Under the pieces are notes generated by a model. It had not been told where the DNA came from, searched no databases, and saw only the letters and a program-made list of their open reading frames with translations. The translations under genes were made by a program, and so were the position numbers. Positions 2,882 through 40,243 of a stretch of 42,473 nucleotides of DNA are shown in pieces. The DNA comes from Flavobacteriales bacterium. GTDB lineage: Bacteria > Bacteroidota > Bacteroidia > Flavobacteriales_C > GCA-002722245. Position 1 is the stretch's first letter, and every line of letters begins with the position of its first letter. The DNA lies in NCBI GenBank assembly GCA_947444925.1, contig CANFBW010000026.1:1-42473 (forward strand), given 5' to 3'.

Positions 2882-2915
2882 ACCTCTTTTTTCGAAAAGA
2901 AATGAAACACTGGTT

Positions 2916-3365
2916 TCACTCGATTTCCTCAACAGTATATTCAACACCATTGAATAGAATTTTTTGTTTCACTTGAGCGCCCATAAGCTTTGCAGCGATG
3001 GGCGCTTGTGGTGAAACGGCATAGTACTCTTTGCCATCTATGTTTAACTTTCCCGCGCTGATGGCGATGTAAAAATTACCGCGATTGGTCACCACCATTG
3101 CTCCTAACGCCACCTTGTCGGCGTGCAGATCGGGATCTATTCGCTCCATACTTTTCAGGAGAGCAGAGGCTTTCAACAACTGCTCAGCATTTTTTTCCTG
3201 CTCCAATTGAAGCATCGCCCTTCCTGTTTCATGTTTGTCACCAGCACTGCTTTTCATTTCAGAACCCGCGTCATCACTCAACTCTTTTTGTGCTGTATTC
3301 AAAGCAGCTACGCTCTGTTTGGCAAAATCCAAACAAGCGCGGTGCAATTTGTGCTTTGGTCCCAC
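2916..3365 (-). CDS. GreA/GreB C-terminal-domain-like protein
   Basis: A 149-residue cytoplasmic protein with a charged helical N-terminus (about 1-75) and a C-terminal beta domain (about 80-149) that resembles the FKBP-like domain of GreA/GreB elongation factors: GAMVVTNRGNFYIAISAG, then YYAVSPQAPIAAKLMG and a closing VEYTVEEIE. Such proteins are common in Bacteroidota and are sometimes labelled 3-oxoacyl-ACP synthase, which this sequence does not support because no thiolase motif is present. The GTG start at 3365 shares its first base with the TAG stop of the upstream FKBP gene (TAGTG), so it is probably translated by reinitiation as the last gene of the nrnA-gldI operon. Action on RNA polymerase is inferred from fold resemblance only. 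Confidence 0.75.
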   Translation of the reverse strand: MGPKHKLHRACLDFAKQSVAALNTAQKELSDDAGSEMKSSAGDKHETGRAMLQLEQEKNAEQLLKASALLKSMERIDPDLHADKVALGAMVVTNRGNFYIAISAGKLNIDGKEYYAVSPQAPIAAKLMGAQVKQKILFNGVEYTVEEIE

Positions 3366-4255: not shown

Positions 4256-4271
4256 AATTGTTTTCTTTATT

Positions 4272-7667: not shown

Positions 7668-8774
7668 ATGAAAATCAAAGAAATTGCGATCTACCAATCG
7701 CCCATAAAACTAAAGGAGCCTTTCGTTATTTCTTTGGGTCGACACGATTGTGCTGAAAACATCATTGTTGTAGTTACTACAGACGATGGATTGACTGGTT
7801 TTGGAGAGTGCTGTCCTTTCAAAACAATCAATGGAGAAAGCATGGAAAGTGCATTTGTTGTTGGCAAATACTTAGGACAACCATTAATCGGCAAAAATCC
7901 ACTTGACATTGAACTTTGCACTGCAATTATGGACGCAGTCATCTTTAGCAATTCAAGTATCAAAAGTGCCTTCGATATTGCACTCTACGACATTGCCGCA
8001 CAAAATGCGAATCTTCCTTTGTACGCATTTTTGAAAGGCAAAAACAACAAGAAATTAATCACTGATTACACCATCAGTATTGACGCAGCAGAAAAAATGG
8101 CAGCGGATGCCACGAAAATCATTGCGAACGGATTTCAAATCATCAAAGTGAAATTGGGCGGCACCAAAATCGAAGACCTTGAACGCATTCAAAAAATTCG
8201 TTCTGCCGTTGGAATGGAGATTCCTATTCGCATTGACGCCAATCAAGGGTGGAAAACCGAAGAAGCCGTTGATATTTTAAAAGCATTGTACCCATACAAC
8301 ATCCAACATTGTGAAGAACCCATTCCCCGTTGGGATTTCATGCAATTGCCGCGCATTAAAAACGAAAGTCCTATTTCCATCATGGCCGACGAATCTTGTT
8401 GCGACCACCACGATGCAAAGCGCCTCATTGACTTATCGGCGTGTGATCAAATCAACGTGAAACTGGGCAAATCATCGGGTATATTCAAAGCTTTAAAAAT
8501 CATCCGTTTGGCCGAAGTAGCAAATATCAACATGCAGGTGGGTGGTTTTTTAGAATCGCGTCTGGCTTTTACTGCATCGGCACATCTAGCATTGAGCAGC
8601 GAAAACATCGTTCACTGTGACTTCGACTCTCCCTTTATGCTTCGCGAAGACCCCGTCATTGGCGGAATTCAATATTCATTAAAAGGTGAAATCATTGTTC
8701 CCGATCAAATCGGCTTAGGTGCTAGTGTTGACAGCGCATACTTACAAGAATTGACAAAAGTCGTGTTAAACTAA
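7668..8774 (+). CDS. Dipeptide (L-Ala-D/L-Glu-type) epimerase, enolase superfamily
   Basis: A 368-residue muconate-lactonising-subgroup enolase. The acid/base lysines are in IIKVKLGG (K160, K162) and NVKLGKSSG (K265). The Mg ligands are D190 (RIDANQGW), E216 (HCEEPI) and D241 (ADESC). HCDFDSPFML (D318, D320) supplies the DxD motif that marks dipeptide epimerases and binds the substrate amino group, and separates it from o-succinylbenzoate synthase. The likely role is converting L-Ala-D-Glu from recycled peptidoglycan to L-Ala-L-Glu. Exact dipeptide specificity is inferred. Its menaquinone-like thioesterase neighbour makes MenC an alternative, but the DxD motif argues against it. Confidence 0.88.
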   Translation: MKIKEIAIYQSPIKLKEPFVISLGRHDCAENIIVVVTTDDGLTGFGECCPFKTINGESMESAFVVGKYLGQPLIGKNPLDIELCTAIMDAVIFSNSSIKSAFDIALYDIAAQNANLPLYAFLKGKNNKKLITDYTISIDAAEKMAADATKIIANGFQIIKVKLGGTKIEDLERIQKIRSAVGMEIPIRIDANQGWKTEEAVDILKALYPYNIQHCEEPIPRWDFMQLPRIKNESPISIMADESCCDHHDAKRLIDLSACDQINVKLGKSSGIFKALKIIRLAEVANINMQVGGFLESRLAFTASAHLALSSENIVHCDFDSPFMLREDPVIGGIQYSLKGEIIVPDQIGLGASVDSAYLQELTKVVLN

Positions 8775-8800
8775 TTCACCAATTTTCATCTCCTTTTTTC

Positions 8801-9598
8801 TTACTTAATACCTCTCGATGCGCAAACCGTATCGTAGGCCTGCTGTACTTTTTGGAATTTCTCGGTAGCTGATTTCACATGTGCCTCCCCTAAGCTCGCC
8901 ACTTTATCAGGATGGTATTTAATGGCCATTTTGCGGTAGGCTTTTTTCAACTCATCATCTGTCGCAGATGATTCTGTTTCCAAAATAGTGTATGCTGAAG
9001 CAAGATCCATTCCTGAAGAACGCTGACGGCCCCCACCTGCTGATGAAGAATCACCCGAAGAATACGAACCACTGTAATTGCCAAACATAAACATGGCTTT
9101 TAACGATTCATAGTCTTTGAAATTGATGCCCATAAATTGAGAAATCTGATAGATGGTATCCATCTCTTGATTGCTCATATTGTCATCGGACTTTGCCAAG
9201 CCAAACAAATAATGAAGTAATTGCAAACGCAAATGGTAATCCATGTGTGATTGAATTTCCTGACAAACTTCGCGCAAACGAATATCTTGCTTCAACAATT
9301 CGCGCAATTCCAACATTTGCTTTTGCGCGTACTCCAAACCGAATTGCTCGGTATAAAAACGACGCACATAGTCTAACTCCGACTTCATTATTTTTCCGTC
9401 AGATTTCATCACAGCCGCGGAAAGCAAAAGTAAACTTGCACTAAAATCTTCAGCCGTCGTTCGTCCTGTACTCGTGCGCACTTGCACGCGTGCTGAGCGA
9501 TCCAATATTGCTCCAATAATAAAACCAATCACCGCACCGCCTAAGCGACCTCCTGATAAAACCCATCCTAAAATGGCTCCGAATATTTTTCCAAACAT
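8801..9598 (-). CDS. djlA: DjlA-like co-chaperone (TerB + J domain)
   Basis: A 265-residue membrane-anchored J-protein. A glycine-rich hydrophobic N-terminus (1-32, GAVIGFIIGAILD) probably forms the transmembrane anchor. A TerB-like helical domain spans about 50-165 (AAVMKSDGKIMKSELDYV, LAKSDDNMSNQEMDTIY), then a Ser/Gly linker (175-195). A C-terminal J domain (198-265) carries the HPD motif at 229-231, which stimulates DnaK ATPase. The order is that of DjlA. It converges on the epimerase gene with 26 nt between, and its start is 112 nt from the HAD gene. Confidence 0.9.
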   Translation of the reverse strand: MFGKIFGAILGWVLSGGRLGGAVIGFIIGAILDRSARVQVRTSTGRTTAEDFSASLLLLSAAVMKSDGKIMKSELDYVRRFYTEQFGLEYAQKQMLELRELLKQDIRLREVCQEIQSHMDYHLRLQLLHYLFGLAKSDDNMSNQEMDTIYQISQFMGINFKDYESLKAMFMFGNYSGSYSSGDSSSAGGGRQRSSGMDLASAYTILETESSATDDELKKAYRKMAIKYHPDKVASLGEAHVKSATEKFQKVQQAYDTVCASRGIK

Positions 9599-9710
9599 TA
9601 ATTACTACTTAGTGATGATACAGCATTCTCCTCTTATTCTCTCTGCAAATGACGCTCATTTTGACATAATCATCAAATTTATACATAATATTGTGAGCAA
9701 AATATTTTCA

Positions 9711-10349
9711 GTGAAAATTGTATTATTCGATTTAGACGGAACGATCACAGACTCATCAGAAGGCATTGTCAACTCTATAAAATTCGCACTTTCGCGCTTG
9801 GGATTTCCAGCAGAAAGCACCGAGAAATTACAAACTTACATTGGTCCATCACTTCACGAGACATTCAAAAAACATTACGGAATTAGCGATACCGCTCACG
9901 CCGTAGAAACATACAGAGAATACTATGCTACAAAAGGAATCTTCGAAAATAAACTCTACCCCGGCATAATTGACGTATTAGAAATGCTGCACTTTCAAGG
10001 ATATACTCTTGCAGTAGCGACAGGAAAACCTACGTATTATGCCGAAATAATATTGAAGCATTTTGACATCAACCACTATTTCTCTGCTGTTGTGGGCAGT
10101 AATTTAGACGGAACACGTGCTGACAAACGCGACATCATCGCAGAGGTTTTTAAACAATTAAAATACAAAGCACTCGAGCACAGCGCTACGATGATAGGCG
10201 ATCGTTCGCACGACGTACATGGCGCAAATCAACACAACATACCCTGCATAGGAGTGCGCTACGGATATTCAGTTGGCGATGAATTAATAGAAGCTGGCGC
10301 AAAAAAAGTGGTCGATCACCCGCTAGAGATAATCACCTTGTTTGAATAA
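9711..10349 (+). CDS. HAD-superfamily phosphatase (Gph/PgmB-like)
   Basis: A 212-residue class I HAD hydrolase with a C1 cap. Motif I is VLFDLDGTITDS (nucleophile and acid Asp), motif II is AVATGKPT, and motif IV is MIGDRSHDV. The cap lies at about residues 15-80. It is closest to phosphoglycolate or pyrophosphate phosphatases; the substrate is unknown. The frame stays open upstream to 9474, but the family begins right before motif I. I therefore chose the GTG at 9711; GTG 9693 or ATG 9615 are alternatives. It converges on the glycosyltransferase gene. Confidence 0.85.
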   Translation: MKIVLFDLDGTITDSSEGIVNSIKFALSRLGFPAESTEKLQTYIGPSLHETFKKHYGISDTAHAVETYREYYATKGIFENKLYPGIIDVLEMLHFQGYTLAVATGKPTYYAEIILKHFDINHYFSAVVGSNLDGTRADKRDIIAEVFKQLKYKALEHSATMIGDRSHDVHGANQHNIPCIGVRYGYSVGDELIEAGAKKVVDHPLEIITLFE

Positions 10350-16157: not shown

Positions 16158-17009
16158 ATGTTGAAAGTCGCCCCTATCTTTTTTGTGCTAACAGCCCTTC
16201 AACTCCTCTCCTGCAAGCAAGAAGCTCCACAACCTAGCTACATTAAAATCGACAGTATTTCTATGTCGTCAAAACACAACAGCCAAGGTTCAGCGAGCGC
16301 AAAGATCTCAGACGCTTGGATTTACATTAACGATCAACTCATAGGCGCCTACGAACTGCCTTGCGAAGTGCCTGTGAGCGCCAGTGGATCCACCAAAATA
16401 TCAATCGTGCCAGGCATCAAAAACACGGGGCAATCTGGAGACCGTCAAAAATATATTTTCTACAATAGATTCGACAGCACCATAATTTTTAATGGAGGAA
16501 GCAACACGCTTCTCCCACATGTAAGCTATATTGACTCCGCATCGTTTTTATGGGTTTATGACTTCGAAGGCAACAATCTTCCTTTGCTTCGCGATACAGA
16601 CTCCGACACCACTTTACAATGGTTAAAAAACAACGAAAATGCTTTTGAGGGAAATGCCTTTGGAGAAGTAACAGTTGACAGCGCTCACCCCAAAGCCATC
16701 ATCAACAGCAATCTAAATTTAAATATTCCAGCAGCCACAAAAGCAACCTATTTAGAACTCAATTACGCCTGTAGCGCCAACACAGAAGTAGGCGTAATAA
16801 CCTATGCATCAAACATTAAAAGCACAACATCTATTGTAACACTTAAGTCTACTGATCTAAAATGGAACAAGATATATATTGACTTTAGCAACGCACTAGG
16901 AAACTATGCTGCACAAGGAATATTTGAAATTTACTTTCAAATTGACCATCTTAGCAATAAGGAATCGAAACTACGCTTAGACAACATAAAGATCATCAGC
17001 CAGAAATGA
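16158..17009 (+). CDS. Unrecognised lipoprotein coupled to a sugar transferase
   Basis: A 283-residue protein I do not recognise. The N-terminus MLKVAPIFFVLTALQLLSC is a lipoprotein signal with Cys19. The rest is predicted beta-rich with little charge: an early ISDAWIYINDQLIGAYELP resembles a beta-sandwich with a displayed loop, and the last third (LELNYACSANTEVGVITY ... IYFQIDH) looks like a jelly-roll carbohydrate-binding fold (inference). Its stop overlaps the sugar transferase start as ATGA, so the two are translationally coupled. A role in surface polysaccharide assembly or retention is plausible but unproven. The coding strand is unusually C-rich and G-poor. Confidence 0.75.
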   Translation: MLKVAPIFFVLTALQLLSCKQEAPQPSYIKIDSISMSSKHNSQGSASAKISDAWIYINDQLIGAYELPCEVPVSASGSTKISIVPGIKNTGQSGDRQKYIFYNRFDSTIIFNGGSNTLLPHVSYIDSASFLWVYDFEGNNLPLLRDTDSDTTLQWLKNNENAFEGNAFGEVTVDSAHPKAIINSNLNLNIPAATKATYLELNYACSANTEVGVITYASNIKSTTSIVTLKSTDLKWNKIYIDFSNALGNYAAQGIFEIYFQIDHLSNKESKLRLDNIKIISQK

Positions 17010-18421
17010 ATTCAAAAAAGCAAGTACTCAAGTACATCATTTGCGACTGGCTCATGGCAACCATTGCTTGGGGTACATTTTTCATATACCGGAAAGGCAA
17101 GCTCGACCAAAGCGACTTCATACTTAAAGAAATTTTACACGACCCAAAACTGCACGCAGGACTTTTAGCCATTCCATTTTTTTGGTTTTGCCTCTATCTG
17201 CTTCAAGGACAATACAGTAACGTCTTCAGAAAATCACGACTCAAAGAAACAGGACAAACATTCCTCATCACCTTTTTTGGCGTTATCGCCATCTTCTTCA
17301 CCTTACTGCTTAACGATTATCGCCCCTCGTACAACACCTACTACAAATCCATATCAACATTATTCTTAATACACTTTACACTCACAGCATTAAGCAGATT
17401 CACAATTACCTCGCGCCTTGCTTATAAAATTCACAATCGAATCATTGGATTCAACACCCTTATCATCGGTAGTGACAAAAAAGCAGTACAGATCTACAAC
17501 GAACTAGAAAAAATGCCCAAATCAATGGGCCACAAAATACTTGGATTCATCACTACTAATGAGGACGAGAAAAACCCTCCTTTACTAAAGCTCATACCAC
17601 ACTTAGGCCACAGCATAGATCTTAGAAAAATCATTACCGACCTCAAAATCGAAGAAGTCATCATTGCCATAGAAAGCAATGAACAAGAAAAAACAAAAAG
17701 CCTAATCGCCGAACTTGAAAACAGCAACATTTGCATCAAAACAATTCCCGATGTACGCGACATACTTCTCGGCTCAGTAAAAATGAACTCCATATTAGGC
17801 GCAGCCCTAATAGAACTATCTTCTGACGCAATGCCTGAATGGCAAAAAAGCACGAAGCGTCTTTTTGACCTATGCTTCTCCTCCCTAGTGCTTTTACTCG
17901 GTCTTCCCTTATACATAGGCATTGCGATCGCAGTACGCCTGGGATCAAAGGGTCCCATCTTCTTCACACAAGAACGCATTGGCCTCCACGGAAAACCCTT
18001 TCAAATCATTAAGTTCAGAACCATGATTGTCGACGCCGAAAAGAACGGTCCCGCCCTATCAAAAAGCAATGACCCCCGCATCACAAAAACCGGACTCTTC
18101 CTGCGTAAGTCACGCCTAGATGAATTTCCGCAATTTTGGAACGTACTCAGAGGAGACATGTCGGTAGTAGGACCACGACCGGAACGCAAATTCTTTATTG
18201 ATCAAATCACACAAAAAGCACCGCACTACCATCACCTTCAAAGAGTTAAACCAGGCATCACATCATGGGGACAAGTGAAATACGGCTATGCCGAGAACGT
18301 CGACCAAATGATAGACCGACTTAAGTTTGACTTGATTTACATGGAAAATAGATCCCTTTTGGTTGATTTCAAAATCATTATCCACACCGTACTGATTGTA
18401 ATTCAAAGCCGAGGAAAATAG
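17006..18421 (+). CDS. Polyprenyl-phosphate sugar-1-phosphate transferase (WcaJ/exopolysaccharide type)
   Basis: A 471-residue inner-membrane enzyme that loads the first sugar phosphate onto undecaprenyl phosphate. The N-terminal half has four likely membrane helices (about 8-25, 48-66, 83-103, 115-132). A Rossmann-like CoA-binding domain follows (about 145-260, LIIGSDKKAVQIYNEL). After a fifth hydrophobic segment (about 290-312) comes the catalytic domain with IKFRTM, RKSRLDEFPQFWNVLRGDMS and VGPRPE, where the Asp-Glu pair is essential in the family. It is coupled to the upstream lipoprotein gene. No further polysaccharide cluster surrounds it, so the polymer is unknown. Confidence 0.92.
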   Translation: MNSKKQVLKYIICDWLMATIAWGTFFIYRKGKLDQSDFILKEILHDPKLHAGLLAIPFFWFCLYLLQGQYSNVFRKSRLKETGQTFLITFFGVIAIFFTLLLNDYRPSYNTYYKSISTLFLIHFTLTALSRFTITSRLAYKIHNRIIGFNTLIIGSDKKAVQIYNELEKMPKSMGHKILGFITTNEDEKNPPLLKLIPHLGHSIDLRKIITDLKIEEVIIAIESNEQEKTKSLIAELENSNICIKTIPDVRDILLGSVKMNSILGAALIELSSDAMPEWQKSTKRLFDLCFSSLVLLLGLPLYIGIAIAVRLGSKGPIFFTQERIGLHGKPFQIIKFRTMIVDAEKNGPALSKSNDPRITKTGLFLRKSRLDEFPQFWNVLRGDMSVVGPRPERKFFIDQITQKAPHYHHLQRVKPGITSWGQVKYGYAENVDQMIDRLKFDLIYMENRSLLVDFKIIIHTVLIVIQSRGK

Positions 18422-18424
18422 CCC

Positions 18425-19315
18425 TTAAGAAGCAACCACGACCCACAAGGACCTCTCACACACCTTAACTTCAAAAGCATTAGGCAACACTAATGACTCA
18501 CCGTCAACGTGCGCCAACGCATTTTCAACTTGAACCGAAATCGCTTTCACTGAGAACGAATTGTAATACCGATCGTTTTTCAATGTACCACGAAACAATC
18601 GATAAGCATATATTGGCAACAAATAAAAAGGCAACTTCTTAATACTAACTACTTCAAGAAAACCATCATCAATTACCGACTTAGGAGAAATCACAGTTCC
18701 ATTTCCATATTGAGAAGAATTCAAAAAAGAAAAAACAAAATACTGTGAACCAGTATTTTGACCTGAATTACTTAAATTAAAAATTTTAGGTTCATATGAA
18801 AAATAATACCTAATAAAAAGGGCCGCATATGTCAAAAAACCACGCCTTTTAACAGTAGAAAAACGAGAAGCGATAAGCGCGTCAAAACCAAGTCCAGCGG
18901 CCCCCACAAAAAATCGACCAGCGATTGTCCCTGTATCCACCAAACACACCTTTCCATCATTCAACAAACGCAAAGCCTCGTCAATACCACGAGGGATCTT
19001 CAAATGCCTTGCCAGTCCATTGCCTGATCCACACGGAATCACAGCCATTGACACAGAAGTATTAAACAGCGATTTCGCAACTTCGTTTACAGTACCATCT
19101 CCACCCACCGCAACAACAATATCAACGCCATCTAAAACCGCTTGTCGAGCCAAAATTTCAGCATGCCCAACAAACTCCGTAAACTTAAACTTTAAATTAA
19201 ATCTATTTAGATCAAGTAACTGATTTGCTTTAATTTGAATATCACTTTTTTCATGAATTCCAGAGATAGGATTCACAACAAACAAGACCTCTTTTCGTTT
19301 TGTTTCAACAATCAT
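18425..19315 (-). CDS. Diacylglycerol/lipid kinase family protein (DgkB/YegS-like)
   Basis: A 296-residue soluble lipid kinase. It begins VLFVVNPISGIHEKSD, carries the nucleotide-binding motif VAVGGDGTVNEVA and IPCGSGNGLARHLKI, and continues with the beta-sandwich domain. The family phosphorylates diacylglycerol or related lipids with ATP. The specific lipid is unknown. The ATG overlaps the bshA stop by 4 nt (ATGA on the minus strand), so it is cotranslated with the bacillithiol gene. Only 3 nt separate its stop from that of the convergent sugar transferase. Confidence 0.9.
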   Translation of the reverse strand: MIVETKRKEVLFVVNPISGIHEKSDIQIKANQLLDLNRFNLKFKFTEFVGHAEILARQAVLDGVDIVVAVGGDGTVNEVAKSLFNTSVSMAVIPCGSGNGLARHLKIPRGIDEALRLLNDGKVCLVDTGTIAGRFFVGAAGLGFDALIASRFSTVKRRGFLTYAALFIRYYFSYEPKIFNLSNSGQNTGSQYFVFSFLNSSQYGNGTVISPKSVIDDGFLEVVSIKKLPFYLLPIYAYRLFRGTLKNDRYYNSFSVKAISVQVENALAHVDGESLVLPNAFEVKVCERSLWVVVAS

Positions 19316-20436
19316 TTTTTGAGCAACGAATTGTAAACATCGAGATACATGGGAAGTATATTTTCCATAGAAAAAAGAGCCGCTCGTTTCCTTGACTCCT
19401 CACTCATTTGTTGCAGTAAATTTTCATCAGTCAAAATACGAATAGAAAATTCAGCCATTGCATCCACATCACCTACGTTAGCCAAGTACCCAGTTTCACC
19501 ATGAATATTCACTTCAGGAATACCACCCGTATTTGATGAAACAACAGGCGTGCCTGCAGCCATCGACTCTAATGCAGCCAAACCAAAAGACTCATGCTCA
19601 CTGGGCAATAAAAACAAATCAGCAGCACAAAGAATATCCTCCACGTTTTTTAATTTCCCCACAAAACGAACATCGTCATAAACACCCAACTGACGGCACA
19701 ACTGCTCTGTAGCATAACGCTCCGGCCCATCACCCACTAAAATCAACTTCGATTTAACCTTTGTACGCACCTTCTGGAAAATCTTTACCACATCATCAAC
19801 CCTTTTTACTTTGCGGAAATTTGAAATGTGAATCAATATTTTTTCTTCTTTGCTAGCAAAATTCAATCGCGCACAGCCGTTCTCAGAAGGTTTGTATTTT
19901 TCGAGATTCACAAAATTAGGAATCACCTTTATGTCTTTTTTGGTTCTAAAGTGCTTGTAGGTATCCGCTTTCAAACTTTCTGACACCGCCGTCACCACAT
20001 CGGAATGCGTAATCGAAAAGCTAATAACAGGCTCGAACGAAGGATCCTTCCCAACCAAAGTTATATCAGTTCCATGCAAAGTCGTAATCACAGGCAAATC
20101 AATGCCTTCCTCTTTCAAAATCTGCTTGGCCATGAATGCAGCCGAAGCATGAGGTATCGCGTAATGCACATGCAATAAATCCAACCCCTCGTGCTTAGCA
20201 ACATCCACCATCTTACTCGTTAACACCACCTCATAGGGCTCATACTGAAACAAAGCGTATTCAGACACCAATACTTCATGAAAGACAATATTGGCATTAA
20301 ACTCATCAAGACGAACAGGCTGGCTGTAAGTAATGAAATGTATCATGTGCCCCTGAGCTGCCAAGGCTTTACCCAACTCTGTAGCAACAACACCACTTCC
20401 CCCAAATGTGGGATAACAAACAATTCCTATTTTCAT
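19312..20436 (-). CDS. bshA: N-acetyl-alpha-D-glucosaminyl L-malate synthase
   Basis: GT4 enzyme that joins GlcNAc from UDP-GlcNAc to L-malate, the first step of bacillithiol synthesis. The 374 residues begin with the very characteristic IGIVCYPTFGGSGVVATELG. The family signature continues with HFITYSQPVRL, LLHVHYAIPHA and TTLHGTDITLVGKDPS. The donor-site Glu motif is PSEHESFGLAALESMAAGTPVV. It has its own -7 element 4 nt upstream (20441-20448). BshB and BshC are not in this window. Confidence 0.95.
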   Translation of the reverse strand: MKIGIVCYPTFGGSGVVATELGKALAAQGHMIHFITYSQPVRLDEFNANIVFHEVLVSEYALFQYEPYEVVLTSKMVDVAKHEGLDLLHVHYAIPHASAAFMAKQILKEEGIDLPVITTLHGTDITLVGKDPSFEPVISFSITHSDVVTAVSESLKADTYKHFRTKKDIKVIPNFVNLEKYKPSENGCARLNFASKEEKILIHISNFRKVKRVDDVVKIFQKVRTKVKSKLILVGDGPERYATEQLCRQLGVYDDVRFVGKLKNVEDILCAADLFLLPSEHESFGLAALESMAAGTPVVSSNTGGIPEVNIHGETGYLANVGDVDAMAEFSIRILTDENLLQQMSEESRKRAALFSMENILPMYLDVYNSLLKK

Positions 20437-30486: not shown

Positions 30487-31497
30487 TTACTTTGACAAAC
30501 TGCTAAGATCTTTAATCCAAGCATCCAGCAAGACCAATTCCGCACTTCCAATAACTTCTATTTCAACTAAACATTGGTAACAAGAGACAAGATTCTCAAA
30601 AATATTTTCCTTACCAACTTTCAATTTCAATTCGCCCAACTCCTTACAAATCTTGCTATTATTAATGTATCCGGGAATCTCATCTTCAAAATCCTTCATT
30701 AAATTGTGCTCATTCCTTTCTTGCCAAACCGTTGGTTCATGAAACAATATGCTCCACCCACATTCCCAAGCAATGCGTTGCGCAACATAACTTCTCCAAA
30801 TATCTGTCATTCTGAAACTACAATAAGACGGCAAATACATCAGAGGAAAAGCCTCTTTAAACCAATGCGTATTTTGACTATTGAACGGACTCCAAGCGTT
30901 GGCACTCAATATCAAACGGTTTTTCAACTCAAAGTTTACTGGCAAGGGATGCGTCAATCGATACAATGCATCTACATCTGGATTTTCATCAGCCAAACCC
31001 TGTTGGATAGGACATTCAAGTACTTCAAGCCCCAGTGAAGATAAAACAAGCGGTTTATCTTTCACATTTTCTATAGGAAAGCCTCGTGGCCATATTATTG
31101 TTTTCGTGAAATAAGCATACACATTCACCCAACCTGAATTCTTGAAACTATGGCCTTTTGCACTGCGATTTTTCGATACCCAAAACGTTGACTTAGGAAT
31201 ATTATCATCATCTGTTTCAATAATTTCATCTGCACCATCCTTAATCGCAAGCAAATACCCCATATTTTTACGTGAATAATGTTTTATTGGAGCGAGAGCA
31301 GCCAGTTTAAAAGAAAGTTGTTGCTGTTTTTCTATACTCCAAAAACTACACCCAGCAAGTTCAAATTCTTTGGGTGAATTTGTATCGCCAATTAAAATAA
31401 AAGGCACATTTCTTTGGACGCATTCTCTTGCAAACAATGCCAAAACTGGATGCTTGTCATTTGCAATAGATGTTATTACCAATGTTTTTTTTGACAT
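30487..31497 (-). CDS. STELLO (DUF288)-type glycosyltransferase
   Basis: A 336-residue soluble protein resembling the STELLO/DUF288 family, best known from plant Golgi proteins that affect cellulose synthase. Landmarks are ITSIANDKHPVLALFARE at the start, KHYSRKNMGYLLAIKDGADEIIETDDDNIP (a DxD-type metal/nucleotide-sugar motif in TDDDN), LILSANAWSPFNSQNTHWF and FRMTDIWRSYVAQRIAW. No signal peptide or membrane segment is evident. Donor and acceptor are unknown. It starts 3 nt after the GT2 gene, so the two are cotranscribed. Confidence 0.8.
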   Translation of the reverse strand: MSKKTLVITSIANDKHPVLALFARECVQRNVPFILIGDTNSPKEFELAGCSFWSIEKQQQLSFKLAALAPIKHYSRKNMGYLLAIKDGADEIIETDDDNIPKSTFWVSKNRSAKGHSFKNSGWVNVYAYFTKTIIWPRGFPIENVKDKPLVLSSLGLEVLECPIQQGLADENPDVDALYRLTHPLPVNFELKNRLILSANAWSPFNSQNTHWFKEAFPLMYLPSYCSFRMTDIWRSYVAQRIAWECGWSILFHEPTVWQERNEHNLMKDFEDEIPGYINNSKICKELGELKLKVGKENIFENLVSCYQCLVEIEVIGSAELVLLDAWIKDLSSLSK

Positions 31498-31500
31498 GCA

Positions 31501-32235
31501 CTAAATTTTTGGCGAGTGTCCACGCAACCTCATAATGAAATAGTAAAACAAAGTCTGGTAGGCATTTTTAATGGCTGTTGCAGAAACCCTTGGTGATGGC
31601 GCTTGATAATGAATCGGCACTTCAAAACTTCTTTTTTTTCTTAACAAATACCTCAACTCCGTTTGATAAAAATGTGCTTTCGATCGCAGCGGGTATTCAA
31701 TAATCTTACCCACAATTTCACGATGAAATCCTTGAAAACCAGAAGTCATGTCATAAAGCTTGGTACCCAAAAGTAGATTTGCTAAAATGGTACCCCCTTT
31801 CGACAAAAGTCTTCGATAAATAGTAGAATTAGCCATGGATCCCCCGTTGATAAATCTACTACCAAAAGCACATTCGTTGCCCTCATTCAACACCCTTAAA
31901 AACATAGGAAGTGCTCTTGGATCATGTGACAATCCTGCATCCATCTCGATGATCAATTCATGACCTGCATCGTACGCCACTCTTAACCCTTTTAAATATG
32001 CATCCACAACATTCTTGTTTTCAGGAGCCCACACAGTAATGTAGCGACTATCTGTTCTAGATTGTTCTTGACAAAGTTCCAACGTTTTGTCAGTCGACAC
32101 CTCGTCAATCACAAAATAAATTTTACCTGGATTAAGTTCATTGACCACAAGGTTGATCATTTCAACAAAAGGCTTAAAATCCAATTCTTCATTAGCCATT
32201 GGCACCACCAATGCCCAGTTTTTGTAATACAACAT
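31501..32235 (-). CDS. Glycosyltransferase family 2 (dolichyl-phosphate-mannose-synthase-like)
   Basis: A 244-residue GT-A enzyme of the DPM1/polyprenyl-phosphate type. It starts WALVVPMANEELDFKPFV and has IYFVIDEVSTDKTLELC, then IIEMDAGLSHDPRALPMF with the metal-binding Asp motif, and AFGSRFINGG. DMTSGFQGFHREIV is the family's acceptor-side SGFRxF region. It lacks the C-terminal membrane helices of GtrB-like members. It is followed after 3 nt by the STELLO-type gene, and the divergent spacer (32236-32387) separates it from YggS. The sugar is unknown. Confidence 0.9.
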   Translation of the reverse strand: MLYYKNWALVVPMANEELDFKPFVEMINLVVNELNPGKIYFVIDEVSTDKTLELCQEQSRTDSRYITVWAPENKNVVDAYLKGLRVAYDAGHELIIEMDAGLSHDPRALPMFLRVLNEGNECAFGSRFINGGSMANSTIYRRLLSKGGTILANLLLGTKLYDMTSGFQGFHREIVGKIIEYPLRSKAHFYQTELRYLLRKKRSFEVPIHYQAPSPRVSATAIKNAYQTLFYYFIMRLRGHSPKI

Positions 32236-33343: not shown

Positions 33344-36300
33344 TTATTTCTTAATCAATTGTAAAGCTTTGTCCATGCTTATTTTTTCATTGCCATTGTA
33401 AACCACCAAAAATGCATCTGTCAAACCAACAGCAAAAGCTTGCTCTTTCATTTTTCGCGCTTCCTCTAAGGAGCTATAAGCACCTACCGTAAAGACCGTC
33501 ACGCCATCTGCATCTTTCACGTAATCTACTTTAGTTGGTAATTTCAAAAACAAAGTAGTTGTTTCAACTGGCACTTCATTTCGATAGGCCCCAACTTGCA
33601 CTTTAAATACAATGTTGGCAACTGGAGTAGATGCAATGACCTTGCCTTCAGATACATTAGCTCCAGAAATATTTTGAGCATCAGAAGCTGAAATTCTTTG
33701 ACCATTTTTATATGCCGTTATAAAAGCATCTTTGATCCCTGCGTTATTTACTTCACCTTTTCGCACTGTAGCATCACCAAATGTTTTATACTTCCCTGTA
33801 CTGTATCTAAATAGTCCATTGCTCGTTTTTTCAAAATTTAATGGCTGTAAATCGAAAGCAGATCCTTTTTGTACTTCCTTTGAAATCACGCAAATTTGAA
33901 CTGTATAAAACACATCTTCATTTGTTTTTACTTCTGCACTTGTAGCACCATTGCCAATTGTATTTTGTGCAAGCACAGCCCCCACTTTAACTTCAACTTT
34001 TGAGATGGCATCAACCTCCTTCGCTTCAATAGCCTGAAGCGCCTTTTGCTCTATCTGTGGAGCCTTCGCTGTAATTTGATTTGCCTGCTCAACCGACACC
34101 CTTTGTCCATTGTAAAAAGGGACTACAAATGCATCAACATATCCCATCTGACGAATTTTGTCACGAGCAATGGCCGCTGCTTTGAAAGATCTGAAAATAC
34201 CCGCTGAATATCGAACGAATCCCAACTTGGTTTGTTCGCCAAACAAAGGTGAAATACCTTTGAATAAATCTTGTGGAATTGGATTTTTAAATGCGCCCAC
34301 TTGAACGGTATACACCAATCCTTCTGGCATTTTATTGTCGATTGGAATAGGATTATTGGCGCTATAAACCACATTGGTTTTGATTTCAAACTGATCTTTC
34401 ACTGTTGCATCTTGTAAGGCAGTAGCGCTCGTTCCAAAAATCTGCGCTTTATCAACATCTACTTTTACAATACTCTTGTCGTCGCCCTTGATTGCGCTAT
34501 GTGGCCCAACAGCATCATTTTTCACTAAGCCATTCACTGCCGCTTTTGTACTCAATACCTCTTTCTGTGTTTTCTCTTTGTATTCGGCAAATACATCTGT
34601 TTTCTTATTGTCGTCAACAGCTTTTTTCTTAACCTCCTGGGCCACTTGTGGAGCCAAACTCTCCATGTACAATTGTGCTTCCCTTCTTTTCGACTGCGCC
34701 TCCATTCTCGCATTGTCAATAAGTTGTGACGACTGCAAAGCCTTATCCTCTTTCTGATCTGCCAACTTTTTGAGCTGAGTCGATTCCGCCAAAAGCTTTT
34801 GAACATCGGCTTCATTTGTTTTGCTATCAGCTTGTGAAAGCACATTCTCCGATTGCAGTTGATACCCCTTAGACTCTTTTTTCAATTGAGTATAATTCTC
34901 AACTTCTTTGGCAATTTCTTTTTCCGCTTTCTTCGCTTCTTCTAACATAACATTGTATTGCTGCAATGCTATGTCAGGTTTTACCGCGGCTATAACTTTG
35001 TTTTGCGAAGCGGCATCATTCGTTGCAGCAGAAGCGCCATTTGTTTTGTCAGACGCTTTATTTTTAGCAACTGCTACTGTTTTTGGATCAATTGATTTTT
35101 GCTTCACTAAAGCCAAACTATCCATTGTTTTTTTAGCATTAACTACAACTGGATTAGTGCTCTTAGGATCAACAACTTTGGTTTTTGCAGTGTTGCTAGA
35201 ATCAGCAGCAGCTCTATTTTCAGCAATCACAACCGTGCTTTCGTCTTTTTTAGCACCTTTTGTTTTTGCATTAACCGCTACAACTGCCGTATCTGCTACT
35301 GCTTTCACTTTAAAATATTTACTTGGATTCGCTTTAACATCCATCATCTTCTCTTGATGCTCTATGGCCTTCTTTTCTAAATCAACCGCTCTAAGAGTAG
35401 CATTGTGCGCAAGCACAGCATCAGTAGCATTGCTGGCTTCCGCCTTTGCAACAGCAGATTTTTTCATCAATGCATCTGCCTCATTTTGCAACGTCTTAAT
35501 GAGTGCAAGTTGCTGTGGATCTAACTTTTCATTTTTATATCCTTCTACCATTTTTGCATTGGCATCAAAATTTGCTTGCTCGGTGCTCAACTCTTTACTC
35601 AATGCTTCGTTCTTTACTTTATCAGAGGCTATTGTGTATGCCAACGACTGCTCCAAAAGAATTTTCTTCTTTGCTGGATTCTTTTCAACATCGGCTTGAG
35701 CGAGCAAATCAGCCGCTTTCCTTTGACCAGCAGAATCCATCGGACTCAATTTTGCTGCGGCTATTGCTTTTGCCTCCGCTACTTTTTGCTGGTCAGCTAT
35801 TTTTTGTCGCTCTGTTGCAGCCAAAATCTCTGCTGCTTTTGCCTTTTCAGCATCTGCATTCAGTATTGTATTTTGCTTTTCAAGTGCACTGGTCTCCAAA
35901 TCGTAAGCGTCATTATACATGGACGTTTGTGTAATTACCGATTTGGTTTTTTTGGCTTTTTCTCGTATTTTTTTTGCCTCTATAAATTGATCTTCAGCCT
36001 CTTTGATTTCGGCTTTTTGCGCCTCGTCAATAGTGAGTTTTTTCTTAATGAAAGCTTGCTTAATTTTGTTTTTGTTGACCTCATTTTCTTTTTCGTGCAA
36101 CTCACCAGTTTTCACCAAAGCCTCTCTTTGCTTCATACGGCCCAAGCGCTTTAATTTCAAGGCCTGCTTCCTGAATTTCTTTGCCTCTGATTTTTTTGCA
36201 GTCTCCGCTTTGCTTTCCAAAGCCATCGCCTGTTCATATTTTACAACAGCCGAATCTTCAAGCTGAGCAATTTCCTTCACAACTGTTTGAACCGCTATAT

Positions 36301-39300
36301 CCTCACTGAAATGATAATTTGAATTTTTATTGACGCCGTAAGCCTCGCTCAAAGTATTTAGCTTGCACTGCTGCAACTGCGCTGCGCTTTTAGGCTCCGT
36401 TGGAAGCACAGCTGTTGTAGCACTATTTTTCACGATAACACTATCCCCTTTAGATTTATTCACTACCGCATACCCCCCCTTGTTTTTTGCCCCCATCTCA
36501 GCTTTCAATACTGCCAAGTCTTTTACTTGCAACAGCAAAACTTGTTGTGTTTTAAGCAATTCCAACTCACGTTTGTACGCATCGTTTATATACGTCACTT
36601 TCTCTCTAAAATCTTTAGTCTGCTTGGCTTTTTCTCTGCTAAGCAAAGTAGAAATCCACGTATTTCCGATATCCGTTAACTCTTTGGCTTTTACCTCTAA
36701 TTTTTTTTGTGAGACAGCCTGTTTTAGCAATGCATTATTGTTATCGTATTCAGCGCGGTTTGCGTAAAAATAGTTTTCCGATGCTTGTAACTGCTTCAAC
36801 TGAGATTCTTCATCTAAGTCAAGTGATGCTTTCGCCAACTTCTTTTTATCGCCTTTATTTACTGTTGCATCAGCAGCATCACGTTTGGATTTTGCATCGA
36901 TGTAAAGTTGTAAGGCCACGTTTTCAGCAGCTCGAGCATTTTTAATATTTGCAAGCACAACAAAATCAGATCCATAAACGAAACTTGGATCAGTTTTAAT
37001 TCCGAATGCATTAAAAGCTGCAAGAGACAATTCTTCTTCCGTGGCTTTTTCTGGCACAAAGTCAACCTTTAAATTACTAGATCGCTGCAATGCAGTATTT
37101 CCAAGTATTGGATCCACTTTTGCAAGTGCAGTGGTATCTGTGTTTGTTTGCTTATTTTGTTTGCCTTTCCCTTTGGTCACCGCCTCCTCCTTCTCACTTC
37201 CTTTTTTTCCAAAAGCTTCTATTGCCTGCAAATCTTTTTCATTGTTTTTGTTAGGATTTACAGCCAATTGTTCTGTACTTATTTTGTCCTCTTTTTGTAT
37301 AATGCGCGCTTGATCAACATGCTGGGCTATCTCCAATTTCAATTGTTCTTCATCAAGTTTTTGCGTATTGAGAATCTTCTTTATTTCTTTTTTAACGGAA
37401 GTATCAGCTTGATTTTCAAAAGCCTGTTTCAAATAGACTTGTTCTTCTTTAATTTTAGCGTATTTGTCATACGCGATTTTGGCCTGCGCCATTTCTTCAT
37501 TGTAACGCTCAATTCCTTTCTTCGTCGGAACAGCCTTCACCGCCACATCAGTCCTCGGCGATTTCTTGGTACTATCAGCCACTGCATTCTCTTTTTGTTT
37601 AGACTCTTTTGTTTTTAACGCAAGGGTCTTTTCAGCTTTCTTAATGCTGTCTGCCTTTACAATTTCTTTTTGCTTAGCCTCTTTCGTTTGTAACAAAAGT
37701 TCCTTCTCTGCTTTTTTTGTGCTATCAGCTAAGGCAACATCGTTGCTTTTTTGTTTTGTTTCGCTAGTCTTCAGCTGGTCTACTTTCTTTATCGGTTCAA
37801 CAGAGCGAACCGCGAGTTCATCCTTTTTCTTTATCTCTACCAATTTTGCGCTGTCAGCTTCAGCTGTCTTCTTCTTTTTTGCTTCCGTCAACTGCGCAAT
37901 ATCTTGCGTTTTCACAATATTCACTTCCTGCTGCAAGTTCTGAATTACCTGGGTATCAGAACTTGGTTCTTCTGTATCCGATTTAATGGCAGCCAACTCG
38001 GCATCGGCAATGGACTTTTCTCCTTGCTTGCGCGCTAATTCCTCCTTTAATTCGTCGATTTGAAGTTTAAACTCCTCTTTGAGTTGCTTGTTTTTAGTGG
38101 CATCCAATTGCTTTTGCAGATTTTTTTGTTCCTCATCCACCTTAACAATTTCAGCTGTCAGTTGATCAATTGCCGCGCTGGTCTTTTTCTCTTCTGCCGC
38201 GCGTGTCAATTTTGTTGCAGTGTAAGCTTCTTCAATACTTGTTGCTCCTGCAGTTTTGTTGCGTTCTTGAATTTGATCCAATTTTATTTTTTGCTGCTCT
38301 AATTTCGCTATTGCATCGTCGGTATTTTTTGCATCACTGGCTTCTTTAATCACTTCAGCATATTGATTGGCTACTGTATATTCCTCCTTTTTGTTTTTCG
38401 CTTCTTGTCTTTTTGCATCTGCATAATGTGCCGTTACCGAAGCCTCTCTTGCTTTTTTTCGCAACAACTTGCCTTTCTGATCAATCTCTAACTGCACCTT
38501 TTCTTTGTCGCCCGCAGCACTTTGATTCAGTTTTTTAGCAAGATCAACCAATTCTTGCTTTTCAACAAGTGCTTCTTCTGCCTTTACCTTCGCAACATAT
38601 TCAGCAGCCTCTGCATCGCTTTGCAGCACAATAAACTCCTTTTCCAACTCTTGCGCATCTTTAAACGCCTCCTGCACCAAATCAGAATTACTCACTTCAG
38701 TCTTCACTTCTCCTACTTTTTCGCTTACTGAATCGTGTTTAGCCAAAGGCTCAATCACCGTTTGAACCGGAATTGGCTTGCTGTTAAAATTTACGTCCTT
38801 ATCAGAATTAACCTGTAAATCAGCACTTTTTTTGTAAAACTGATTGAACGCAACATCGTCGATAGCACTTTGTTTTTGATTCGCAATCAACATTTTCTCT
38901 TGCGGATTTTTATGCAAGTCAATTTTCTGATTGATTACCGGAGCTTCCTTCTTCTCAGGAATATTTACAACATCTTCAAGAGGTTCATATCCACTGGCAA
39001 TTACTTTAAATCCATATTGTTTGCCCGAAGGCAATGTCATTGCATAGGCACCGGTTTTCTCATTGACCTTGTACACACCAACAATCACACCTGTTTCCAT
39101 ATCCGTCACAGTGATTTGAGCAATTTTTTGTTTTGCTGTTTCAATGCTGATTTCACCTTTCACGATGGTGTTGTCTTGGTGCAATTTATTGGGAACGATT
39201 TTGTACACCGTAATCTCGTCCTTCGAACTGGCGCGCGAAGAAGCAAAAAAAGCAACGTCCTCCGTCATATCGGTGATGTACAATATGTCGTCATCAGGAG

Positions 39301-40243
39301 AATTCACTGCAAAACCAACATTAACAGGTGCCTTCCAAAGGTTAGTTACCTCATCTAAATCACTTTTAAAAATGTCATAACCACCAATACTGTTGTGACC
39401 TTTTGAAGCGAAATACAAAAATTTCCCGCTCGGATGCAAGTAAGGGTAATCTTCATCCAAAGCTGTATTGATGAGCGGACCAAGAGTCAAGGGAGTACTC
39501 CAGGTGCCATCAGCAAAATGAACCATTTTGTACAAATCTTTGCCGTTCTCTCCTTTTTCACCATAGCTGGAAAAGTAAACTTCAGAAAGCAATGGATTGT
39601 GCACAATGAGCGAATACTCCTTATTTTTTTTGTCCAGTTTGGTTTTAAATTCATCAGGTTTGACCAATATTTTTCTGTCGAACTCATTGAGTTGATAACC
39701 CCTAAAAAACTCTTGACGATTGATGTCTTTTTTGCTCAAGACATTAATGGATTGAATATCCTGAATCAATACTTTTCCTTCTTCGCACTGCGTAATAAAA
39801 AGCGAAACATCGTTTTCTTGAACAGTTTTACTTTTTGCTTTAATGCGAAAATCTTTATACGCCTTAATGGCTTCTTTGAAATAATAGTTGAGATGATAGG
39901 CGCGCGCCACATAATAAAACGCCATCTCCTCTACACCTGGCTTACTCACAGCAAACTTCAAGAACTTGAGTGCTTCCTCCTTGTCGGAACTAGCATAAAG
40001 TAAGCAAGTGCCGTATTTAAAATTATAATTGGGGTCCTGTGCATGTAAACTCACCAACTGAGAGTAGTAATCGAGCGCCTGCGCATACTGTTTTTGTTCG
40101 AAAAGCTTGTCGGCTTTTTTGATCATCTCTGTTTCTGATTCAAAACCATCTACAAAGGAACATGAGGCCACAACGAAGATTGCAGTCAGCAGCATCTGAA
40201 AGTATTTTTTCAGCAGATGCGGATTCATATAGAAGAATTCCAT
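33344..40243 (-). CDS. Giant lipoprotein: TPR-PD40-regulatory domain, long helical region, three SPOR-like repeats
   Basis: A 2,299-residue envelope protein. A lipoprotein signal ends at VVASC (Cys28; an ATG at 40228 gives a tighter signal). TPR-like helices span about 37-135. PD40/beta-propeller strands span about 215-350 (FLYFASKGHNSIGGYDIF), and a carboxypeptidase-regulatory-like beta domain about 361-443. This trio is that of PorE-type OmpA proteins of type IX secretion. From about 500 to 1970 the chain is Lys/Ala/Glu/Gln-rich, helical and probably coiled coil. Three SPOR-like domains begin at 1977 (VYTVQVGAF), 2112 (FYTVQICVI) and 2212 (VFKVQVGAY). No OmpA domain is present. SPOR domains normally bind glycan strands stripped of peptides. 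Function unknown; a link from outer membrane to peptidoglycan is inferred. Confidence 0.88.
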   Translation of the reverse strand: MEFFYMNPHLLKKYFQMLLTAIFVVASCSFVDGFESETEMIKKADKLFEQKQYAQALDYYSQLVSLHAQDPNYNFKYGTCLLYASSDKEEALKFLKFAVSKPGVEEMAFYYVARAYHLNYYFKEAIKAYKDFRIKAKSKTVQENDVSLFITQCEEGKVLIQDIQSINVLSKKDINRQEFFRGYQLNEFDRKILVKPDEFKTKLDKKNKEYSLIVHNPLLSEVYFSSYGEKGENGKDLYKMVHFADGTWSTPLTLGPLINTALDEDYPYLHPSGKFLYFASKGHNSIGGYDIFKSDLDEVTNLWKAPVNVGFAVNSPDDDILYITDMTEDVAFFASSRASSKDEITVYKIVPNKLHQDNTIVKGEISIETAKQKIAQITVTDMETGVIVGVYKVNEKTGAYAMTLPSGKQYGFKVIASGYEPLEDVVNIPEKKEAPVINQKIDLHKNPQEKMLIANQKQSAIDDVAFNQFYKKSADLQVNSDKDVNFNSKPIPVQTVIEPLAKHDSVSEKVGEVKTEVSNSDLVQEAFKDAQELEKEFIVLQSDAEAAEYVAKVKAEEALVEKQELVDLAKKLNQSAAGDKEKVQLEIDQKGKLLRKKAREASVTAHYADAKRQEAKNKKEEYTVANQYAEVIKEASDAKNTDDAIAKLEQQKIKLDQIQERNKTAGATSIEEAYTATKLTRAAEEKKTSAAIDQLTAEIVKVDEEQKNLQKQLDATKNKQLKEEFKLQIDELKEELARKQGEKSIADAELAAIKSDTEEPSSDTQVIQNLQQEVNIVKTQDIAQLTEAKKKKTAEADSAKLVEIKKKDELAVRSVEPIKKVDQLKTSETKQKSNDVALADSTKKAEKELLLQTKEAKQKEIVKADSIKKAEKTLALKTKESKQKENAVADSTKKSPRTDVAVKAVPTKKGIERYNEEMAQAKIAYDKYAKIKEEQVYLKQAFENQADTSVKKEIKKILNTQKLDEEQLKLEIAQHVDQARIIQKEDKISTEQLAVNPNKNNEKDLQAIEAFGKKGSEKEEAVTKGKGKQNKQTNTDTTALAKVDPILGNTALQRSSNLKVDFVPEKATEEELSLAAFNAFGIKTDPSFVYGSDFVVLANIKNARAAENVALQLYIDAKSKRDAADATVNKGDKKKLAKASLDLDEESQLKQLQASENYFYANRAEYDNNNALLKQAVSQKKLEVKAKELTDIGNTWISTLLSREKAKQTKDFREKVTYINDAYKRELELLKTQQVLLLQVKDLAVLKAEMGAKNKGGYAVVNKSKGDSVIVKNSATTAVLPTEPKSAAQLQQCKLNTLSEAYGVNKNSNYHFSEDIAVQTVVKEIAQLEDSAVVKYEQAMALESKAETAKKSEAKKFRKQALKLKRLGRMKQREALVKTGELHEKENEVNKNKIKQAFIKKKLTIDEAQKAEIKEAEDQFIEAKKIREKAKKTKSVITQTSMYNDAYDLETSALEKQNTILNADAEKAKAAEILAATERQKIADQQKVAEAKAIAAAKLSPMDSAGQRKAADLLAQADVEKNPAKKKILLEQSLAYTIASDKVKNEALSKELSTEQANFDANAKMVEGYKNEKLDPQQLALIKTLQNEADALMKKSAVAKAEASNATDAVLAHNATLRAVDLEKKAIEHQEKMMDVKANPSKYFKVKAVADTAVVAVNAKTKGAKKDESTVVIAENRAAADSSNTAKTKVVDPKSTNPVVVNAKKTMDSLALVKQKSIDPKTVAVAKNKASDKTNGASAATNDAASQNKVIAAVKPDIALQQYNVMLEEAKKAEKEIAKEVENYTQLKKESKGYQLQSENVLSQADSKTNEADVQKLLAESTQLKKLADQKEDKALQSSQLIDNARMEAQSKRREAQLYMESLAPQVAQEVKKKAVDDNKKTDVFAEYKEKTQKEVLSTKAAVNGLVKNDAVGPHSAIKGDDKSIVKVDVDKAQIFGTSATALQDATVKDQFEIKTNVVYSANNPIPIDNKMPEGLVYTVQVGAFKNPIPQDLFKGISPLFGEQTKLGFVRYSAGIFRSFKAAAIARDKIRQMGYVDAFVVPFYNGQRVSVEQANQITAKAPQIEQKALQAIEAKEVDAISKVEVKVGAVLAQNTIGNGATSAEVKTNEDVFYTVQICVISKEVQKGSAFDLQPLNFEKTSNGLFRYSTGKYKTFGDATVRKGEVNNAGIKDAFITAYKNGQRISASDAQNISGANVSEGKVIASTPVANIVFKVQVGAYRNEVPVETTTLFLKLPTKVDYVKDADGVTVFTVGAYSSLEEARKMKEQAFAVGLTDAFLVVYNGNEKISMDKALQLIKK
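37545..37760 (-). repeat. Tandem 25-27-residue repeats in the giant protein
   Basis: Three successive units share K-Q-K, then ADSxKKAEKxL and TKExK. They start with KQKSND, KQKEIV and KQKENA, spaced about 81 and 75 bases apart. They lie in the helical region and indicate recent internal duplication. Confidence 0.7.

Follow-up and report, generated by a model that had tools for sequence, protein, structure and literature searches.

Few bacterial routes to furanose sugars are described. They comprise the flavin adenine dinucleotide (FAD)-dependent uridine diphosphate (UDP)-galactopyranose mutase, lipid-phosphate systems that depend on phosphoribosyl pyrophosphate (PRPP), a few characterized GT75 mutases, and routes through cytidine diphosphate (CDP)-furanoses. 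The locus analyzed here is a pair of adjacent genes in a 42,473-nucleotide stretch of DNA from a Flavobacteriales bacterium (GenBank assembly GCA_947444925.1, contig CANFBW010000026.1), termed the window below. One gene encodes a 336-residue protein related to GT75 mutases, and the other a 244-residue GT2 glycosyltransferase resembling dolichol-phosphate mannose synthase (DPMS). The two genes form a real module. With moderate confidence, we propose that this module makes a sugar donor, in which a nucleoside diphosphate (NDP)-furanose would be converted to a polyprenyl-phosphate-furanose for extracytoplasmic transfer to a surface glycan.

Three groups of GT75-related proteins invite comparison. 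MtdL and Hyg20 are GT75 pyranose mutases that act on guanosine diphosphate (GDP)-sugars in antibiotic pathways, and MtdL is reported to interconvert the pyranose and furanose forms of GDP-L-galactose and GDP-L-fucose (PMC9937993). Plant RGP/UAM proteins (PF03214) are UDP-arabinopyranose mutases. Plant STELLO proteins (PF03385) are described as having a region homologous to GT75 in addition to DUF288 (PMC4906169). For the later steps, the relevant systems are the three-component extracytoplasmic pentofuranose systems and mycobacterial arabinan, the latter built by GT-C enzymes from decaprenyl-phosphate-arabinofuranose, as described in PMC11127046. The window pair would share the logic of the three-component systems, namely a lipid-phosphate furanose, a flippase and a GT-C enzyme. 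However, the furanose in those systems is described as coming from PRPP via a phosphoribosyltransferase (PMC11127046), whereas here an NDP-sugar mutase and a DPM-type GT2 would supply it. The pathway logic would therefore be known and the way of making the furanose different.

The 336-residue protein is, over its whole modeled length, of the GT75 NDP-pyranose-mutase fold. In the PDB, the single family that phmmer finds at E ≤ 1 is MtdL (E 2.6e-24), and a profile of 30 proteins (A1, the window protein and 29 relatives) reaches MtdL at E 3.9e-43. The AlphaFold (AF2) model has a mean predicted local distance difference test score (pLDDT) of 94.8 and a predicted template modeling score (pTM) of 0.94. 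It matches MtdL with Z 37.6 and a root-mean-square deviation of 2.4 over 330 of 336 residues, followed by rice UAM2 with Z 26.7, while the best other match has Z 13.2. Foldseek likewise places MtdL first (E 1.7e-24) and rice UAM2 next (E 8.2e-15). In these structural comparisons, identity to MtdL is 25–28%, and no weight is placed on which other families are missing from the table of fold matches. Because the nearest characterized relatives by both sequence and fold are NDP-pyranose mutases, the likeliest role of the protein is to make an NDP-furanose for the GT2, rather than to act as a second glycosyltransferase.

The initial annotation had named this protein a STELLO-type glycosyltransferase. 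A missing profile match had been named beforehand as grounds for refuting that annotation, but the Pfam label itself stands, since the protein scores 43.4 bits against PF03385 (E 2.7e-11, cut-off 27.8 bits) and is the single STELLO match found in its genome. Orthology to plant STELLO does not stand. The alignment is confined to profile positions 1–105 of 387, so that the STELLO-specific C-terminal region (approximately 106–387) is missing. Also missing is an N-terminal extension able to hold the TM anchor of plant STELLO, a type II Golgi protein, as the AlphaFold model opens directly with the first GT-domain strand (residues 4–9). On a crude hydropathy scale, the best 19-residue mean of the protein is 1.52, below the threshold of 1.6 used here for transmembrane (TM) segments, and there is no Golgi or cellulose context. 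Among the matches listed, all bacterial PF03385 matches stop at profile position 103–125 of 387. We read the STELLO match as a sign that the opening part of the STELLO profile probably overlaps the closing part of the GT75 domain. A bacterial STELLO ortholog was accordingly rejected as a candidate identity, the fold being that of the GT75 core alone.

The family is also distinct from RGP at the profile level. The window protein has no PF03214 match at E ≤ 1. Like it, seven relatives match STELLO rather than RGP (above the cut-off in all but L020, which scores 14.3 bits), whereas the MtdL segment matches RGP rather than STELLO. When Gln259 is changed to His in silico, the STELLO score falls by 1.7 bits, from 43.4 to 41.7, which weakly suggests that this Gln is common to the STELLO family. 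It had also been stated that STELLO proteins are known mainly from plants. Plants are not the sole source, as relatives occur in records labeled Bacteroidota, Pseudomonadota, Acidobacteriota, Calditrichota, Verrucomicrobiota and Campbelliibacteriota. The profile is indeed uncommon in bacteria, being present in 6/395 genomes of the window's phylum (its own included), in 5/299 of the phylum of a Bradyrhizobium locus described below (L061, its genome included), and in none of 14 named control genomes.

Most active-site residues of MtdL are retained. These residues were mapped onto the family by alignment, with roles taken from PMC9937993, and were counted in A1 and in a wider set of the window protein plus 63 loci, in which two proteins (L063 and L065) are fragmentary and lack some of the sites. 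All 30 A1 proteins are identical at the equivalents of MtdL Thr13, Ile15, Asp40, Asp109–111, Arg159, Asp195, Ser228, Gln229, Arg257, Asp260, Arg289 and His292. In the wider set, Arg159 (Arg138 in the window protein), Asp195 (Asp174), Gln229, Arg257 (Arg229) and Asp260 (Asp232) are kept in 64/64. The DDD motif is kept in 62 of the 63 proteins that reach it, the exception being NDD in L113 (Asp109 to Asn), and Ser228 is kept except for Thr in L095. The likeness to MtdL thus extends from the fold to the DDD motif, the nucleophilic Arg, the general-base Asp and the nucleotide-binding Thr, Ile and Asp. Other positions differ from MtdL, among them Ser86, which is His in 57/63, and Asn42, which is Lys in 58/63 and Asn in the window protein. 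Across A1, 40 columns are invariant, down to 27% identity to the window protein. Thr13, whose change to the Pro of plant proteins weakens GDP binding in MtdL (PMC9937993), is kept, and in this respect the family resembles GDP-using MtdL and not the UDP-using RGPs.

The partner protein matches PF00535 (52.4 bits), and its best solved relative is the dolichol-phosphate mannose synthase 5mlz (E 3.8e-18), with undecaprenyl-phosphate transferases of the ArnC type next in line (E 1e-5). At E ≤ 0.001 it matches four PDB sequences, one DPMS and three ArnC, all lipid-phosphate sugar synthases. The assignment of a DPM-like GT2, and the gap of three nucleotides between same-strand open reading frames (ORFs) from which cotranscription had been proposed, are both confirmed. 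The protein differs from DPMS and GtrB/ArnC-type enzymes in having no visible membrane anchor: neither it (best 19-residue mean 0.89) nor the relatives scored have a TM segment by crude hydropathy. To our knowledge, no solved member of the DPMS/GtrB/ArnC type uses a furanose donor.

The pair is conserved as a unit. In a set of 100 genomes (the window genome and 99 relatives), the putative mutase is found in ten at E ≤ 0.001, nine of them close (E ≤ 5.2e-119, at least 54% identity) and one distant (G026, 29%). A GT2 ortholog scoring above 400 bits occurs in exactly the nine genomes with a close mutase, while the best score among the other 91 is 128 bits. A genome of the same genus as the window's (G002) has neither gene. 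Conservation of the pair had been set beforehand as a test of the initial annotation, and it is supported both by this distribution (9/9 versus 0/91 genomes) and by a survey of neighboring genes in 63 non-duplicate loci, pooled from sets of 3, 50, 5 and 5. Six loci (L012–L016 and L018) had been left out before counting, as they lie on the same contigs as L021, L026, L028, L037, L041 and L058. The contig scan for relatives used exact eight-residue patterns from the query and therefore favors close relatives. A GT2 of the DPM-like type lies within three genes of the putative mutase in 49/63 loci. In 37 of these, it immediately precedes the mutase gene in the same orientation (within 150 nucleotides in 35, within 30 in 16), and elsewhere it is two genes 5′ (10 loci), 3′ (one) or divergent (one). 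Even L020, with a distant mutase (27–29% identity), has a GT2 and a short-chain dehydrogenase/reductase (SDR) beside it.

A tree was built from 61 of the 63 loci (two fragments left out), the window protein and MtdL. The branches of MtdL and L020 are very long, and their placement is therefore not used. Members linked to the GT2 are spread over several phyla, and the linkage label is clustered, with 7 changes compared to 12.8 in shuffles. One well-supported clade is unlinked (L069, L095, L096 and L098). The titles of two records, L028 (Chryseobacterium gleum) and L053 (Bordetella parapertussis), are labels of metagenome-assembled genomes. The mutases of both group with Bacteroidota rows, so at least the Bordetella parapertussis title looks unreliable.

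Several individual loci illustrate how the module varies. In L020 (G026, positions 2323–5012), the module adjoins the same GT-C-like and, by eye, ThiL-like families that flank a 70%-identity module in L022 and L026, so that two versions of the module appear to occupy what looks like one chromosomal site. In L094 (G182), the GT2 is 71% identical to that of the window, the mutase is 45% identical, and the two are divergently transcribed, which suggests that the two halves may evolve or be exchanged separately. In L110 and L111, the mutase is followed by a divergent GT2 and then by a multi-TM gene, upstream of genes whose beginnings, by eye, resemble aspartate carbamoyltransferase and dihydroorotase. 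The NDD protein of L113 (positions 8225–9304, minus strand) is nonetheless encoded in an operon of GT2, membrane protein and mutase, and L067 is a second copy in the same genome.

These data are consistent with the following mechanism. The 336-residue protein would be a cytoplasmic, metal-dependent enzyme in which Arg138 opens and re-closes the nucleotide-bound sugar, yielding an NDP-furanose. The 244-residue GT2, judging from its family, would move the furanose onto polyprenyl phosphate, and the lipid-linked furanose would then be flipped to the outside. There, a membrane GT-C glycosyltransferase of the kind suggested by neighbors in relatives may attach it to a surface glycan. The two-step glycan pathway suggested in the initial annotation is retained in this scheme, with the steps recast as NDP-furanose formation followed by transfer by the GT2. 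In some relatives a candidate gene for this GT-C enzyme lies next to the pair, whereas in the window genome it is probably located elsewhere.

Membrane proteins are frequent around the pair. Multi-TM neighbors (at least 6 TM by the crude scale, 380–760 residues, within three genes) occur in 36/50 loci with three genes on each side, compared to 38/190 genes in 20 control stretches chosen from 7 mutase-bearing genomes. This excess is suggestive only, because of the kinship among the loci and because an acyltransferase family and a Wzx-like flippase are among the proteins counted. AftB is an arabinofuranosyltransferase, one of the GT-C enzymes that build mycobacterial arabinan. A family of approximately 604 residues lies upstream of the pair in 8 loci, and its profile (A3, built from 7 of 9 members) matches mycobacterial AftB at E 5.3e-18 in an alignment that takes in an aspartate pair (residues 47–48) and a GGDFM motif. 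For another flanking family, of 558 residues, the model is of low confidence (pLDDT 61), and its matches are therefore a lead only. By title, its best 20 Foldseek matches are GT-C-type enzymes or complexes containing one, except for 9n9j, whose title names only a translocon, and they include AglB, OST, ALG9, ALG3, PimE, ArnT, PMT and AftB, all of which we take to be GT-C-type. The profile of this 558-residue family (A2, 8 of 12 members) does not reach significance against PDB sequences (best E 0.8), and A3 aligns weakly with A2 and with a further profile, A5.

Other candidate partners are limited to particular loci. In L017, a PMT_2 protein (60.2 bits) lies directly 3′ of the pair; a homolog of the 5′ neighbor in this locus, 39% identical, is present on contig C86 of the window genome, which also has 11 PMT_2 matches (9 above the cut-off). 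A search of the window genome with one GT-C-like protein flanking the pair in L022 found nothing. In L113, a membrane protein lies between the GT2 and the mutase in an overlapping operon. For the membrane proteins of L113 and L067, PDB matches stay below significance (best E 0.58 and 0.12, respectively), as do their alignments to A3. In L066 and L070, two GT2 genes are separated by a gene for a small protein of the DUF2304 type (the L070 copy was scanned with Pfam). Measured against the three-component systems, the window holds a synthase candidate only, several relatives have GT-C-like genes beside the pair, and DUF2304 occurs in two loci. A tandem two-domain SDR of approximately 676 residues lies between the GT2 and the mutase in 9 loci (one copy was scanned with Pfam). 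This tandem SDR (e.g., L022, positions 7712–9742) is also found beside the GT2 in L019, and it may be a sugar-modifying enzyme with the same donor as its substrate. A universal tandem-SDR partner was dropped as a candidate, as it occurs in 10 of the 53 non-duplicate loci that were grouped by clustering and additionally in L094, and the window genome has weak SDR matches only (best 41 bits).

The donor is likelier to be a GDP-sugar than a UDP-sugar, given the conserved guanine-contacting Thr and the presence of GDP-L-fucose genes, and L-fucose or a derivative would be one candidate because the genes for GDP-L-fucose synthesis are found in the window genome. Contig C3 of that genome encodes close relatives of both GDP-L-fucose enzymes (68% and 54% identity). 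In L096, the mutase shares a gene cluster with a GDP-mannose-dehydratase-like gene (GMD) and a GDP-fucose-synthase-like gene (Pfam Epimerase). Counting against a specific tie, this cluster also holds other sugar genes, so the link to fucose is not exclusive. A GT11-family gene lies near the L113 mutase, and two genes in L069 look GT11-like by eye.

The strongest points against a donor-making module concern two active-site positions. The equivalent of MtdL His287, a manganese ligand, is Gln in 63/63 proteins, and that of Asp87 is Tyr in 62/63 and Ile in L020, with one row cut before the site in each case. Mutase activity is reported to need Asp (in MtdL) or Ser (in active plant RGPs) at the latter site: changing Asp87 kills the activity of MtdL, a Ser-to-Tyr change in AtRGP2 abolishes the furanose product, and the inactive AtRGP5 has Tyr there (PMC9937993). 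These substitutions speak against carrying the mutase label over unchanged, and they are the main reason why our confidence in the proposal is moderate. With the Arg and Asp kept but these two positions changed, the family is a separate, STELLO-like branch of GT75. They also suit a different enzyme, a true glycosyltransferase of the kind proposed for plant STELLO, which would glycosylate itself or another acceptor and release no free NDP-furanose, while the product of the GT2, serving the same glycan, would be an ordinary polyprenyl-phosphate pyranose. Such an enzyme would account for Gln259 and Tyr74, which depart from known mutases, the Tyr74 site being one where substitutions cost MtdL and AtRGP2 their mutase activity (PMC9937993), and for a family profile that is STELLO while that of MtdL is RGP; GT75 enzymes are moreover reported to glycosylate an arginine (PMC9937993). 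We nevertheless regard it as rather unlikely, because the nucleophilic Arg and general-base Asp are kept without exception and the DDD motif with one, the fold covers MtdL end to end, and an independent enzyme would not need strict pairing with one GT2 clade. That the protein is catalytically dead, an AtRGP5-like pseudo-enzyme that regulates or scaffolds the GT2, is very improbable. Two positions that differ in AtRGP5 differ here too, Asp87 being replaced by Tyr and the manganese-ligand His being lost (PMC9937993). However, Arg257, described in that paper as not conserved in AtRGP5, is kept in all 64 proteins, and 40 invariant columns at such divergence are not the pattern of a dead enzyme.

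Further points against the donor-making proposal concern the steps after the mutase. Fourteen of the 63 loci have no GT2 of the DPM-like type within three genes of the mutase. In three of these (L038, L053 and L063) the contig ends close to the mutase, while the others are L061, L062, L064, L067, L069, L095, L096, L098, L110, L111 and L112, of which L096 has its contig cut on the 3′ side of the mutase, and L069 and L110 have another GT2, though not of this type, adjoining it. In L061 (Bradyrhizobium) and L069 (Campbellbacteria), the mutase lies among surface-polysaccharide genes without this GT2. The GT2 family is also large, with profile matches in 99/100 genomes, so that homology does not prove a polyprenyl phosphate acceptor. 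In the window, neither a flippase nor a GT-C gene was found by Pfam among the genes flanking the pair, and profile A3 finds no AftB-like match in the window genome. Strong A3 matches (>1000 bits) are confined to G028 and G071, two of the ten mutase-bearing genomes, and at E ≤ 0.001 the profile matches 2/10 mutase-bearing and 10/90 mutase-free genomes. There is therefore no general association with AftB, the link being lineage-limited, and a universal AftB-like partner was rejected on these counts. Some of these points would be explained if the mutase made NDP-furanose and the GT2 passed the sugar straight to a glycan or protein acceptor in the cytoplasm, so that neither a lipid-phosphate donor nor a GT-C enzyme would be involved. 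A GT2 of this small size, with no extra domain and no TM segment by crude hydropathy, the lack of an adjoining flippase, and the unaccompanied mutases of L061 and L069 all agree with direct transfer. We judge it improbable, since all four PDB matches of the GT2 are lipid-phosphate sugar synthases, some relatives have membrane proteins with GT-C features beside the pair, and the DUF2304-type protein stands between two GT2 genes in L066 and L070.

We therefore return to the donor-making module, and tentatively suggest that it may represent a further bacterial route to lipid-linked furanose donors, in which a STELLO-like Gln/Tyr GT75 mutase and a dedicated DPM-type GT2 supply AftB-like or other GT-C enzymes that decorate surface glycans. 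Among the matches listed from the open-access literature, no title or opening of an abstract describes the STELLO-like GT75/GT2 pair. A module of this small size, with two genes that are tightly co-inherited and spread over several phyla, would connect the chemistry of GT75 enzymes with donors of the lipid-phosphate type. If this is correct, plant STELLO would be an enlarged relative of a bacterial mutase branch. We know of no report on the biochemical activity of plant STELLO, and the module would offer a small, apparently soluble relative for a direct test of activity in this branch.

Table 1. Positions of the gene pair and its main features in the window.
Feature	Coordinates	Strand	Basis
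DPM-like GT2, 244 residues; proposed polyprenyl-phosphate sugar (furanose) synthase	31501..32235	-	Pfam, PDB match, genome co-occurrence
Gap of 3 nucleotides between GT2 and mutase genes; likely one transcript	31498..31500	-	ORF ends
GT75-fold protein, 336 residues, STELLO-like branch; proposed NDP-pyranose/furanose mutase	30487..31497	-	Pfam, phmmer, AlphaFold, fold match
Stretch matching Pfam STELLO, residues 229–334 (profile 1–105 of 387)	30496..30813	-	PF03385 profile
DDD motif, residues 96–98, metal/nucleotide binding	31204..31212	-	Aligned with MtdL Asp109–111
Arg138, equivalent of self-glycosylated/nucleophilic Arg159 of MtdL	31084..31086	-	Alignment, 64/64
Asp232, equivalent of MtdL Asp260, proposed general base	30802..30804	-	Alignment, 64/64
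Gln259, replacing manganese ligand His287 of MtdL; branch signature	30721..30723	-	Alignment, Gln in 63/63
Tyr74, replacing essential Asp87 of MtdL; branch signature	31276..31278	-	Alignment, Tyr in 62/63

In the window, the pair is set among genes of other kinds (Table 1 gives its own coordinates). Its direct flanks are a DUF1015 gene and a YggS-like gene (Ala_racemase_N), and the nearest genes scanned with Pfam, which also include ClpS and FKBP, are none of them glycan genes. The genomic setting thus differs from that of MtdL, which belongs to an antibiotic cluster. Elsewhere in the window, 10–13 kb from the pair, there are a Bac_transf sugar transferase (17006–18421, plus strand) and a GT4 (19312–20436, minus strand). 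On the other side, positions 33344–40243 (minus strand) encode a protein of 2299 residues with an N-terminal PD40 repeat, a middle that by eye is long and charged, and a C-terminal SPOR domain, an architecture that looks unusual.

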